NCBI GenBank assembly: GCA_014189675.1
Contig: DVAE01000021.1
Span: 1 to 19,649 of the forward strand
Length of the DNA: 19,649 nucleotides
DNA from: Candidatus Undinarchaeales archaeon SRR5007147.bin71
Lineage (GTDB): Archaea; Undinarchaeota; Undinarchaeia; Undinarchaeales; Undinarchaeaceae
Direction: 5' to 3'
Numbering within the stretch: position 1 is the stretch's first letter; each line of letters starts with the position of its first letter. Position numbers and translations under genes: made by a program. The notes below the pieces were generated by a model. The model did not search any database. It was given only the letters and a program-made list of their open reading frames with translations, and was not told the origin of the DNA. Of the stretch, positions 178-12,367 are shown one piece after another.

Positions 178-858
178 ATGGAGCAAAAACACGTACAAGA
201 AGCAATCAAACAAGCCCGTGAAAATTCCAAAAAGAGGAATTTTTCCCAGACTTTTGACTTAGTTGTATCTCTAAAGGATTTTGACCTCTCTAAACCGGAG
301 AACAAAGTCAAGGAAGAAGTTGTTCTGCCGGCAGGTCGAGGGAAGCCTGTCAGAATTGGAGCAATTGCTGAGGGTGAACTCGCAGAAAATGCTAAAAAAT
401 CAGGCATTGAAATTATAGTTAGCAAGGCAGACCTTCAGAAGATGCAGGATGACAAGAAATCTGCAAAAAAACTTGTAAATCAGGTTGATGTTTTCATAGC
501 CTCCCCAGATCTCATGGCAGAGGTTGGAAAGACTCTGGGTCCGCTTCTAGGCCCACGAGATAAAATGCCAAAACCACTTCCACCGACGGCCCCTCTTGAA
601 GCTTTTATACAGAGGACAAACAAGGTCGTTAATGTAAGGACAAGAGACCAGCCAATAATCCAGTGTCTTGTCGGTACTGAGGCTATGAAGGATGAGGAAA
701 TAGGCCAGAATCTTATGGCTGTTCTTACTGTTCTTGAAAACAAACTTCCTAAGGGCCTCGGAAATATAAAAGCCGCTTATGTAAAACTTACGATGGGCAA
801 GCCTGCACTTATTGGCGGAAGCAAAATACAGGAAGATTCTGAGGGAGGCGAAGAATAA
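178..858 (+). CDS. rpl1: 50S ribosomal protein L1 (uL1)
   Basis: This 226-residue protein is close to full archaeal L1 length. L1 binds 23S rRNA at the L1 stalk, helps E-site tRNA leave, and in several species represses its own mRNA. The core is recognisable: VVLPAGRGKPVRIG early on, then a central GPLLGPRDKMPKPLPP stretch (about residues 118-133), and a late conserved KLPKGLGNIKAAYVKLTMGKP stretch (about 188-208). The end, EDSEGGEE, is a short acidic tail. I chose ATG 178 because AGGAGG lies four bases before it. The in-frame TTG at 163 would place that site inside the gene. The stop TAA overlaps the next ATG (TAATG), indicating translational coupling with L10. Confidence 0.95.
   Translation: MEQKHVQEAIKQARENSKKRNFSQTFDLVVSLKDFDLSKPENKVKEEVVLPAGRGKPVRIGAIAEGELAENAKKSGIEIIVSKADLQKMQDDKKSAKKLVNQVDVFIASPDLMAEVGKTLGPLLGPRDKMPKPLPPTAPLEAFIQRTNKVVNVRTRDQPIIQCLVGTEAMKDEEIGQNLMAVLTVLENKLPKGLGNIKAAYVKLTMGKPALIGGSKIQEDSEGGEE
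221..243 (+). promoter_or_regulatory. 8-bp inverted repeat early in the L1 coding region
   Basis: AAAATTCC (221-228) and GGAATTTT (236-243) are perfectly complementary around a 7-base loop. This lies about 43 bases into the gene. In Methanococcus the L1 autoregulatory site is inside the start of the L1 coding region, so this is a candidate site. The internal loop typical of L1 targets was not identified, and an AT-rich repeat of this size can arise by chance. Confidence 0.25.
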
Positions 859-2075
859 TGAGGGAAGGCGATGTTCCTCAGCAGAAGGTAGATCTCGTCA
901 ATGAGCTTGTCAGTTTAATAAATGAAAATTCAGTTGTCGCGCTTTTAGATATTACAAATCTTCCTTCAAAACAACTTTTGCAGATGAAGCACGCCCTTCG
1001 TGGCAAGGCTGTAGTGAGAATGGCAAGGAAGAGTTCTATTTTACGTGCTCTCGAGCAGACAGACGGAAAGGGACTTGTTGAGTATTTGAAAGGAATGCCT
1101 GCTATTCTTGTCTCTTCAGAAAATCCCTTCATGCTTTCAAAAATTCTGAAAGAAAGCAAAGCGACCGCCCCTGCAAAAGAGGGCACAACTTTGAATAAGG
1201 ATATAGTAATTCCTGCAGGTGAAACTTCCTTTGCTCCTGGTCCTATCGTAGGCGAAATGCAAACAATGGGAGTTAAAGCAGCAATCGAGGGCGGAAAAGT
1301 TGTTGTAAAAGAAGACTCAGTTCTTGCAAAAGAAGGAGAAGTCGTGGACAAACAAAAGGCGGATCTTATGGCGAAACTTGAACTTGAGCCAGTTGAAATT
1401 GGTCTTGGGATGCTTGCAGCATATGAAAATGGTTTAATTTTCACTTCAGATGTTCTTGACATAGATACTGAGGAAACTCTGGGTCAGCTTGCAGCTTCAG
1501 TTGCAAATGCAATCAGTCTTGCCTACAGTATCAAATATCCAACAAGCGATAATATTGAAATGTTCATAAAAGAGGCATTCGTACAGGCAAAGGGTCTTGC
1601 CATGGAAGCAGGTTATATGTGCAGTGCGACCTCCGAGGACTTACTGAAACAGGCAGCAGGAGAGGCTTCTGCCCTAGAAAGCAAAGTTCCAGAAGCTCCA
1701 GCAGAGGATTCAAAAGAAGAATCAGAAGAGAAATCTGAGGAGGCTTCTTCTGAGGAAGAGCCTAAAGCTGAAAAAAGCGAAGAAACTCCAGAAGAGGAAA
1801 AGAAGGAAGAAAAATCTGAAGCCCCTGAAGAAAAGCCAGCAAAGAAAGAAGCTCCAGCAGAAGAGCCAGCAAAGGAAGAAGCGCCTGCAGAGGAAGCTTC
1901 CCCTGAAGAATCTAAAGAGGAAACTCCAGTAGAAGAAAAAACAGAAGAAGAGCCAGCAAAGGAAGAAAAGAAGGAAGACTCTAAAGAAGAAAAAGCAATT
2001 GAAGAGCAGTCAACTGAGGATCTTCTTGCGCAAAACGAAGAAGAGATTAAGAAAGAGAAAAAAGAAACAGGATAA
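858..2075 (+). CDS. rpl10: 50S ribosomal protein L10/P0 (uL10) with a long Glu/Lys/Ala/Pro tail
   Basis: Archaeal-type stalk base protein of 405 residues, longer than the roughly 300-350 usual in Archaea. Residues 1-105 are the rRNA-binding domain, with typical RGKAVVRMARKS at 48-59. Residues 106-180 are the archaeal/eukaryotic insertion domain, including PGPIVGEMQTMGVKA. Residues 185-265 are the helical spine that carries L12 dimers. From about 271 to the end the protein is a low-complexity tail rich in E, K, A, P and S, with PAKEEAPAEE-like repeats. The usual archaeal C-terminal factor-binding motif (GLGALFG-like) is absent; the protein ends KKEKKETG. Start: GGAGG at 844-848 lies nine bases before ATG 858, and TAATG overlaps L1. 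The L12 gene that normally follows is missing. The stop abuts the convergent neighbour's stop. Confidence 0.95.
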   Translation: MREGDVPQQKVDLVNELVSLINENSVVALLDITNLPSKQLLQMKHALRGKAVVRMARKSSILRALEQTDGKGLVEYLKGMPAILVSSENPFMLSKILKESKATAPAKEGTTLNKDIVIPAGETSFAPGPIVGEMQTMGVKAAIEGGKVVVKEDSVLAKEGEVVDKQKADLMAKLELEPVEIGLGMLAAYENGLIFTSDVLDIDTEETLGQLAASVANAISLAYSIKYPTSDNIEMFIKEAFVQAKGLAMEAGYMCSATSEDLLKQAAGEASALESKVPEAPAEDSKEESEEKSEEASSEEEPKAEKSEETPEEEKKEEKSEAPEEKPAKKEAPAEEPAKEEAPAEEASPEESKEETPVEEKTEEEPAKEEKKEDSKEEKAIEEQSTEDLLAQNEEEIKKEKKETG

Positions 2076-9703: not shown

Positions 9704-12367
9704 TTACTCTACAAATATTGCCGGTTTCATAACATCTCCGGTACTTGCCTTTTTATTGTCACTGTCTTCTGCGTCAATAAGCTGGATATCGCATCCAAAT
9801 TCTGTTTTCAGTTGCTCAAGACCCTCTTCAAGCGCCTTTCTGACCTCTTCCTTGCTCAGAATGACTTCAGGAAGTTCGAATTTCCTTTTCTGCAGTCTCT
9901 GAACATATTTGGCAAGCTCTTTTGCGTGTTTCTTCAAGTCAGAATTCTTCATCATAGCTCCAATATCTTTTCCTGCTTTAAATTCTGAATAAGTAAGATA
10001 CTTCCACTCCGGTGCTACGAAAAGCCTTATCTTGCTCGGCTCTTTTCCAACAAGTTCTATAACCTTTCTCATATCGCTTGCAGTGTTTCTTAGTAAATCT
10101 TCTCCAAGCTCCATTTTCTCATCAAGATATTCCTCAGAGGCCTCTGGCCAGCTCCCCTCTGCAAGCATTTTCTTGTTCCCAATTTTCTCCCAAAGCTCCT
10201 CTGCCAGGTGCGGGGAAAAAAGGCTGAACATTTTTATCATGTTTTCTACGCAGTCAGAGAAAACAGCAGAATTGGCGCTTTCAGAATACTTGTTGAGCTC
10301 TGTTACAAGGGACATAAGAGACCCGATTGCAAGGTTCATCTGGAAATTTTCCATGTTGTCTGAGACAGTTTTTATTGTCCTATGAGTTTTCGCAAGAATA
10401 TGCATGTCCTTGCTGCTCAGTTCTCCGTATTTTCCCTTCTTAATCTTCTTCAGGTTCTTCTCAACAAGCGAATTAACTCGGACAATGAAGCGATATACTG
10501 ATTCGACTCCTGCGTCGCTCCAGTCAAGCTCTTTCTCCGGAAGCGCAGTGAAAAGCATAAAAGTTCTTGCAGTGTCTGCCCCGTATTTTTCTATTATTTC
10601 TCCGGGCTCAACAATATTTCCACGGGATTTGCTCATCTTTGCGCCATCCTTTATTACCATTCCCTGGCAAAGCAGGCGCTTGAAAGGCTCGTCTACTCCA
10701 CACAGACCAATATCACGCAGAACCTTTGAAAAGAATCTTGCATAGAGGAGGTGCATTATGGCATGCTCTATTCCTCCGATGTACTGGTCGACTGGTGCCC
10801 AAAACTTGGCAGATTTTTTAGAGAAAGGCTCCTTTGAATTCCGTGGATCAAGATATCTGTAGAAGTACCAGGAGGAATCTACAAAAGTGTCCATTGTGTC
10901 TGTCTCTCTTTTTGCAGATCCTTTGCATTCTGGACATTTTGTTTTAACGAAAGTTTCATTCGAAGTGAGTGGATTTCCCTTGCCTGTAAATTTAACATCA
11001 AGAGGTAATTCTACAGGAAGATCCTTTTCAGGTACAGGAACTGTTCCACACTTTCCACAATATATTACAGGAATTGGCGTTCCCCAATATCTCTGTCTGG
11101 AAAGAAGCCAGTCCTTGAGTTTGTACTGGACTTCTTTCTTTCCTAATTTTTCCTTTTCAATATAAGTTGCTATAGCTTCTATAGCTTCTAGGCTTCCCTT
11201 CCCATCGAATTTTCCTGAGTTAGCAATAATTCCCTCACCGACATAGGCTTCTGCCATTTTTTCAGGATTCAGTTTTTTCCGTTCAGGCTGAATGACTACC
11301 TTTATTGGTATTTTATATTTCTTCGCGAACTCAAAATCCCGCTGATCATGCGCAGGGACTGCCATTATGACTCCAGTTCCGTAGTCCATCAGGACAAAAT
11401 TTGCTATGTATATTGGAATCTCCTCTCCTGTAAGTGGGTTTATTGCGTGCTTTCCGATAAACATACCTTCTTTCGTGTAATCTTCTGCAGAACGAGAGAA
11501 TTTTTCCTCAAGAAGAACCTTGTCAACGAATTTTTTGACATCCTTTTCGTATTTTGTTCCCTTAACTAATTCTGAAACTTTCGGATGTTCTGGAGCGTAG
11601 ACCATATATGTTGCTCCGTAAATAGTATCTGGCCTTGTTGTGAATACTTTGATGTCTTCATTTGTCTCCTTCTGCTTGAAATTTATAAGAGTCCCTTCAG
11701 ACCTTCCAATCCAGTTTCTCTGCATCGTTTTTACTTTGTCCGGCCACTCCTCTAACTTGTCTATATCGCTTAGTAATTCTTCAGCGTAATCTGTAATTTT
11801 GAAGAACCATTGTTCAAGATCCTTCATCGATACTGGATTCTTACAGCGCCAGCATTTTCCGTTCTCTACCTGCTCATTCGCCAAAACAGTGCCACAGGAC
11901 TCACACCAATTTATCGGAGCCTCCTTCTTATAAGCAATTCCGCGTTCCAACATTTTCAGGAAAATCCACTGGTTCCAGCGGTAATAATCTGCTTTGCAGG
12001 TCTGAACTTCTCGGTTCCAGTCATAGCTGAGTCCCAAGGACTTAAGTTGCTCCGTCATTTCAGACATCATCTTGTCTGTCCACTTTGCCGGCTGCGTTTT
12101 CTGTGCAATTGCAGCGTTCTCTGCAGGAAGTCCAAAAGCGTCGTAACCCATCGGATATAAGACATTCCAGCCCTTCATTCTCTTATATCGTGCAAATGAA
12201 TCTCCTATTGAATAATTCCGGACGTGTCCCATATGAATCTTGCCGCTCGGATATGGAAACATCTCAAGAACATAATACTTATCTTTAGAAGAGTCCTCTC
12301 TGGTTTTGAATACTCCCTTACTTTCCCATCGTTTCTGCCATTTTTTCTCTATTTTGCGATGCTCCAT
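9704..12367 (-). CDS. leuS: Leucyl-tRNA synthetase: bacterial-type core with archaeal-type C-terminal domain
   Basis: Class I synthetase of 887 residues for tRNA-Leu. The N-terminal core is bacterial-type: EMFPYPSGKIHMGHVRNYSIGD (HIGH motif at 45-48), a zinc ribbon (C155, C158, C172, C175), and an editing domain with TTRPDT (243-248) and GVIMAVPAHDQRDFEFA (key Asp near 341-344). A second Cys set (437, 440, 478, 481) and KMSKS (577-581) follow. The leucine-specific insert before KMSKS is absent, as in some bacteria. After the anticodon domain (FSPHLAEELWE) the bacterial VNGKVR-type end is missing. From about 750 the sequence matches archaeal LeuRS tails: LKKHAKELAKYVQRL and the end VMKPAIFVE. 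ATG 12367 fits leaderless initiation; GTG 12373 is an alternative. The gene is convergent with the TraB-like gene. Confidence 0.93.
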   Translation of the reverse strand: MEHRKIEKKWQKRWESKGVFKTREDSSKDKYYVLEMFPYPSGKIHMGHVRNYSIGDSFARYKRMKGWNVLYPMGYDAFGLPAENAAIAQKTQPAKWTDKMMSEMTEQLKSLGLSYDWNREVQTCKADYYRWNQWIFLKMLERGIAYKKEAPINWCESCGTVLANEQVENGKCWRCKNPVSMKDLEQWFFKITDYAEELLSDIDKLEEWPDKVKTMQRNWIGRSEGTLINFKQKETNEDIKVFTTRPDTIYGATYMVYAPEHPKVSELVKGTKYEKDVKKFVDKVLLEEKFSRSAEDYTKEGMFIGKHAINPLTGEEIPIYIANFVLMDYGTGVIMAVPAHDQRDFEFAKKYKIPIKVVIQPERKKLNPEKMAEAYVGEGIIANSGKFDGKGSLEAIEAIATYIEKEKLGKKEVQYKLKDWLLSRQRYWGTPIPVIYCGKCGTVPVPEKDLPVELPLDVKFTGKGNPLTSNETFVKTKCPECKGSAKRETDTMDTFVDSSWYFYRYLDPRNSKEPFSKKSAKFWAPVDQYIGGIEHAIMHLLYARFFSKVLRDIGLCGVDEPFKRLLCQGMVIKDGAKMSKSRGNIVEPGEIIEKYGADTARTFMLFTALPEKELDWSDAGVESVYRFIVRVNSLVEKNLKKIKKGKYGELSSKDMHILAKTHRTIKTVSDNMENFQMNLAIGSLMSLVTELNKYSESANSAVFSDCVENMIKMFSLFSPHLAEELWEKIGNKKMLAEGSWPEASEEYLDEKMELGEDLLRNTASDMRKVIELVGKEPSKIRLFVAPEWKYLTYSEFKAGKDIGAMMKNSDLKKHAKELAKYVQRLQKRKFELPEVILSKEEVRKALEEGLEQLKTEFGCDIQLIDAEDSDNKKASTGDVMKPAIFVE

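Follow-up and report, generated by a model that had tools for sequence, protein, structure and literature searches.

A leucyl-tRNA synthetase with a bacterial-type core and an archaeal C-terminal tail in an Undinarchaeales archaeon

Introduction

Bacterial-type leucyl-tRNA synthetase (LeuRS) has been described in haloarchaea, where Andam et al. (2012) located a recombination breakpoint at position 780 or 628, according to the alignment used, and where a short C-terminal fragment united all haloarchaea with 47% support (PMC3436685). Fang et al. (2014, NAR 42:5109), as cited in PMC4427996 and PMC9437257, reportedly describe LeuRS of Natrialba magadii that are bacterial but have tRNA-binding domains of archaeal type. 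In Haloferax, leucine identity resides in A73, the variable-arm loop nucleotides A47c-G47d and a U at the base of the arm (PMC9976931). Sequence-specific reading of the variable arm has been described as unique to Archaea, and in E. coli LeuRS the arm is dispensable (PMC9976931).

A further case of this known but rare bacterial-core/archaeal-tail design is encoded in a 19,649-nt stretch of DNA, hereafter the window, comprising positions 1 to 19,649 of contig DVAE01000021.1 from Candidatus Undinarchaeales archaeon SRR5007147.bin71 (GCA_014189675.1). An earlier note on this DNA, made from the sequence alone, had proposed that a bacterial core is fused to an archaeal domain that reads tRNA and had cautioned, with the haloarchaea in mind, that the design might not be unique; the caution was correct, as the design is published there. 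Like the N. magadii enzyme, so far as the accounts of the latter go, the window LeuRS combines a bacterial-type core with an archaeal tRNA-binding domain in an archaeal host that has archaeal tRNA-Leu. Its host belongs to another, small-genome phylum, and it is the single LeuRS found, whereas N. magadii reportedly has two copies, LeuRS1 and LeuRS2.

The LeuRS-B of Haladaptatus aligns with residues 2-887 of the window LeuRS at 42%. The window enzyme falls outside the haloarchaeal LeuRS-B clade: in a quick tree that included a single row from haloarchaea, the only usable one obtained when LeuRS-B was sought in plasmids, the Haladaptatus core pairs with that of genome G022 (99) and the window core is placed elsewhere (99). 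The G022 enzyme (L203) is acidic, and the archaeon it comes from has a genome of 1.0 Mb and is possibly a halophile. Its core pairs with L171 from the Haladaptatus plasmid, a pairing compatible with host-symbiont transfer, and the two tails do not clearly pair (p-AU 0.30 for one clade, with long branches and acidic make-up).

Bacterial LeuRS (T. thermophilus 1H3N, E. coli 4AQ7, Neisseria 6YKK) resemble residues 1-750 of the window LeuRS in sequence, motifs and fold, but have a short VNGKVR-type C-terminal end that it lacks. Archaeal LeuRS (TIGR00395/PRK12300, P. horikoshii 1WZ2) share the C-terminal domain of the window enzyme to its last residue and differ in the core. A literature search, with most subscription journals outside its coverage, found no report of bacterial-core LeuRS in small-genome archaea, nor any description of the wider pattern set out below. 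The part that looks new is the repeated exchange of core and tail.

Gene and Genomic Setting

The features of the gene are listed below in window coordinates.

9704..12367, minus strand: leuS, chimeric leucyl-tRNA synthetase, 887 aa, intact open reading frame with ATG start
12224..12256, minus strand: HIGH motif region PYPSGKIHMGH, residues 38-48, bacterial wording
11159..11719, minus strand: editing domain of leucyl-tRNA synthetase, PF13603, residues 217-403, bacterial type, with TTRPDT and GTGVIMAVPAHDQRD inside
10625..10639, minus strand: KMSKS, residues 577-581
10061..10408, minus strand: anticodon-binding domain, PF08264, residues 654-769
10118..10450, minus strand: bacterial-to-archaeal junction zone, residues 640-750; log-odds flat, peak at residue 708
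9707..10114, minus strand: archaeal-type C-terminal tRNA-reading domain, residues 752-887
9707..9727, minus strand: KPAIFVE, archaeal LeuRS end motif, residues 881-887

The neighbours of leuS are archaeal and include ribosomal proteins uL1 and uL10 (the latter with its insertion domain), AlaRS, endonuclease V and CutA1. The uL10 protein (window 858-2072) has 405 aa in all and carries a very long acidic tail rich in lysine and glutamate. The host genome amounts to 624 kb in 39 contigs and is 83% complete; searches of it with a general class I model and an archaeal LeuRS model found no second LeuRS. The sole LeuRS found is presumably the working leucyl-tRNA synthetase of the host, with the charging activity that this role implies. 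Named relatives are the metagenome-assembled genomes (MAGs) Euryarchaeota archaeon ARS1358, archaeon UBA55 and archaeon UBA543. Elsewhere in all three genomes of the window's genus, a methionyl-tRNA-synthetase-like gene has one in-frame TAA in or beside the match (G000:C27:1169-1915, G001:C2:95289-95741, G002:C3:26327-26995), which may be an upstream stop or the mark of a split gene.

Bacterial Core and Archaeal Tail

The strings on which the earlier note relied (PYPSGKIHMGHVRNYSIGD, MAVPAHDQRDFEFA, LKKHAKELAKYVQRL and VMKPAIFVE) are all found in the window LeuRS, and motif inspection bore out the bacterial wording of its HIGH, editing and KMSKS regions. Against TIGR00396, the bacterial model, residues 1-750 score 1008 bits (cut-off 548.4), and the match stops 63 positions short of the model's end. 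The archaeal models TIGR00395 and PRK12300 match up to their final position, at residue 887. The archaeal part amounts to the last ~137 residues, and its earlier description as 135 or so residues from about 750 was accurate. Over the whole protein TIGR00395 yields 315.9 bits, far below its family cut-off of 648.5, because the core is bacterial. The short C-terminal domain with a VNGKVR-type motif that marks a typical bacterial LeuRS is absent, as had been noticed, and the motif is present in 41 of 41 bacterial-host relatives.

When the tail alone (residues 744-887) was compared with solved structures, the one LeuRS matched was P. horikoshii 1WZ2, at residues 825-967 (E 6e-12); bacterial LeuRS gave no match. 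A tail profile recovered the same chain at 1.7e-42 and human LeuRS more weakly. The C-terminal domain thus matches archaeal and human LeuRS rather than any known bacterial LeuRS end, and within it W788 and K789 are conserved, as is the end motif. Scored column by column, bacterial against archaeal, the window LeuRS climbs by 1393 bits to a peak near residue 708 and falls by 185 thereafter; 39 bacterial controls drop by at most 3 bits after their peak, in profiles that were built from the control rows and so favour them. The exact crossover can be placed within about residues 640-750 and no more finely.

Structure models agree with this division. The full-length model (pLDDT 90) matched bacterial LeuRS over residues 1-751, with Z mostly 44-46, and no archaeal LeuRS appears among the 50 matches listed because bacterial LeuRS fills them; the tail was therefore folded and searched separately. 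The tail model (mean pLDDT 95) retrieved 1WZ2 (TM 0.79) and human LeuRS in Foldseek and nothing significant beyond. Profiles, structures and the separate trees described below all uphold the chimera.

Spread Among Archaea

Bacterial-core LeuRS with an archaeal tail turns out to be common in small archaea. In the window's order, the chimera is present in three genomes of the genus and in two others, and the sixth genome, G003, has a fully archaeal LeuRS; these six genomes make up the sample of the phylum. In the phylum of G024, which includes genomes whose LeuRS resemble those of Woesearchaeota MAGs, bacterial-core LeuRS was found in 46 of 87 genomes and archaeal LeuRS over the cut-off in 24 of 87, with no genome common to both lists. 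The tail follows the domain of the host: archaeal hosts (small-genome archaea plus a single Haladaptatus plasmid) contribute 53 full-length bacterial-core rows, every one of which has an archaeal-type end, and all 41 bacterial-host rows have a bacterial-type end. Nearly all archaeal chimeras are known from draft metagenome-assembled genomes. Assembly error was considered as their source and set aside, since three genomes of the genus and dozens beyond it share the chimera.

Variants of the design were also seen. Among the bacterial-core rows from archaeal hosts, L026, L028, L227 (G071) and L237 (G110) have an archaeal tail that is shortened but still finishes with the archaeal end motif. Four chimeric LeuRS of other small archaea, L294 (G072), L295 (G074), L297 (G093) and L062, carry a serine-hydrolase-like alpha/beta-hydrolase domain of about 178 aa in the editing region, after residue 237 in window LeuRS numbering; it was assigned to PF06821 in the two tested (E 1e-11 and 1e-8) and has an HSLGG or HSLGA elbow. 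L297 additionally holds a 126-aa Nudix domain (PF00293, E 5e-12) in the editing region after residue 361, and at this same site L296 (G086) has a 94-aa insert of unassigned family.

Phylogeny of Core and Tail

The core and the tail were placed in separate trees, and the two segments did not group with the same bacterial clade. In the core tree, three label changes suffice for the archaeal-host rows. The window core lies in a clade, supported at 99 (99/97 in the careful tree), with Woesearchaeota, Elusimicrobiota and Clostridia rows, and bacteria bearing bacterial tails nest beside it. Because the bacterial rows were collected with the window LeuRS as query, any inference about the donor is biased.

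In the tail tree (111 rows, 148 usable columns, many open forks), bacterial-core and archaeal-core rows are mixed by lineage, with 15 label changes by parsimony; starred branches alone force at least five, and no bootstrap tree manages with just one. One clade of all bacterial-core tails was rejected (p-AU 0.0002 with 111 rows; 3e-78 with 47 rows, very small values in such two-tree tests denoting strong rejection rather than exact probabilities). Since whole-gene transfer cannot mix labels on the tail tree, core-tail exchange is required, and the conflict between the trees requires several such events. The clearest case is family f39, in which four bacterial-core rows share one tail clade with the archaeal-core enzyme of G092 (100/100). 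Between G095 and G092, members of the same genus, core identity is 17-37% to residue 580 and tail identity mostly 36-88%. L230, a row within f39, has the family tail, but its core falls with those of L226 and L028 (100/98 and 100/100). Strong rejection also met the forcing together of f39 cores (p-AU 5e-8) and of the L230 tail with its core kin (p-AU 2e-66), both groups having been picked after the trees were seen. Tails group by host lineage and cores regroup differently; core and tail have therefore recombined repeatedly, with the junction within residues ~640-750.

Within the order to which the window belongs, the tails of the five chimeras group with that of the archaeal-core G003 (96/82; 99/82 in the reduced set), and the five tails nearest to G003 in the whole set are those same five. 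When the remaining mixed lineages are omitted, holding the bacterial-core tails in one clade costs 37 log units but is not rejected (p-AU 0.06), and the order chimeras as a clade without G003 are not rejected (p-AU 0.40). Local grafting in the order is likely on these grounds. The earlier suggestion that the archaeal tail was kept or regained holds in general, with tails following host lineage; for the window's order, clade support and nearest neighbours speak for it, and the test values leave a single shared fusion standing.

Host tRNA-Leu and the Predicted Function of the Tail

The host tRNA-Leu genes found have the anticodons GAG, UAG, UAA and CAA. The variable-arm loop reads UUAG in all four, while the stems of the arm differ among isoacceptors. 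Counting from the anticodon stem placed A47c-G47d in the three intron-free tRNA-Leu, A73 is present wherever the gene end is readable, and the loops of host tRNA-Ser are unlike UUAG. The structural counterpart of the tail, 1WZ2, is a complex of P. horikoshii LeuRS with tRNA-Leu.

With its intact motifs and fold, the core would activate leucine, charge tRNA-Leu and edit errors as in bacterial LeuRS. The tail is predicted to bind the host's archaeal tRNA-Leu at the tip of its long variable arm and to read A47c-G47d, because it is homologous to 1WZ2, because the same nucleotides are identity elements in Haloferax, and because the loop occurs in the host tRNA genes. Bacterial-type cores without an archaeal tail would probably do poorly on archaeal tRNA-Leu.

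Origin of the Chimera

The favoured reading is that of a working chimera whose tail reads host tRNA-Leu and which reflects repeated joining of a bacterial core to a resident tail (joint probability roughly 0.8). A mobile bacterial core would have recombined onto an archaeal tail already resident in the lineage, with more than one origin, this being the presumed direction of each exchange. It is proposed that the resident tail is retained because the archaeal tRNA pool selects for it. The alternative of one ancient bacterial-core/archaeal-tail fusion, passed on by descent and transfer in one piece and never again exchanged, could draw on the strong clustering of archaeal-host core rows, whose three changes on the core tree are what one or a few transfers would give, and on the p-AU of 0.06 in the window's order alone. 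This alternative is nevertheless very unlikely, given that one clade of bacterial-core tails is rejected at both sample sizes, that archaeal-core and bacterial-core enzymes of one genus have tails in common, and that bacterial-tailed bacteria nest beside the window core. A further alternative would place such bacterial-type cores outside Bacteria, and haloarchaeal LeuRS-B has been placed at the base of Bacteria (PMC3436685). The window core, however, is nested with Elusimicrobiota and Clostridia rows instead of being basal, and the window tail falls together with that of the archaeal-core enzyme from the same order, leaving this alternative scarcely credible.

Functional drift of the tail has also to be weighed, in which the domain would have moved to another job and charging would proceed mainly through the bacterial core with the variable arm unread. 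The dispensability of the arm for E. coli LeuRS (PMC9976931) and the few relatives with shortened tails (L026, L028, L227, L237) would suit such a course. Against it stand the conservation of W788, K789 and the end motif, the invariance of A47c-G47d in the host tRNA-Leu genes found and the archaeal end of every bacterial-core enzyme from archaeal hosts, and drift is accordingly judged highly improbable. Returning to repeated joining of cores to resident tails, a broader form of this reading has a somewhat better than even chance: across small-genome archaea the tRNA-reading LeuRS tail would be fixed and lineage-bound, and the catalytic and editing core replaced many times, with a junction that recurs close to where the anticodon-binding domain ends. 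These replacements would have run from one bacterial core to another and between bacterial and archaeal ones. As the bacteria with sister cores have bacterial tails, the tail rule would be valid across domains.

Implications

Cross-domain transfer of synthetases is usually viewed as whole-gene replacement, and here an essential enzyme seems to have been swapped in parts. The tRNA-reading part would be the one held back by the host tRNA, which makes co-adaptation with tRNA directly testable. Whole-gene LeuRS trees of archaea combine two histories.
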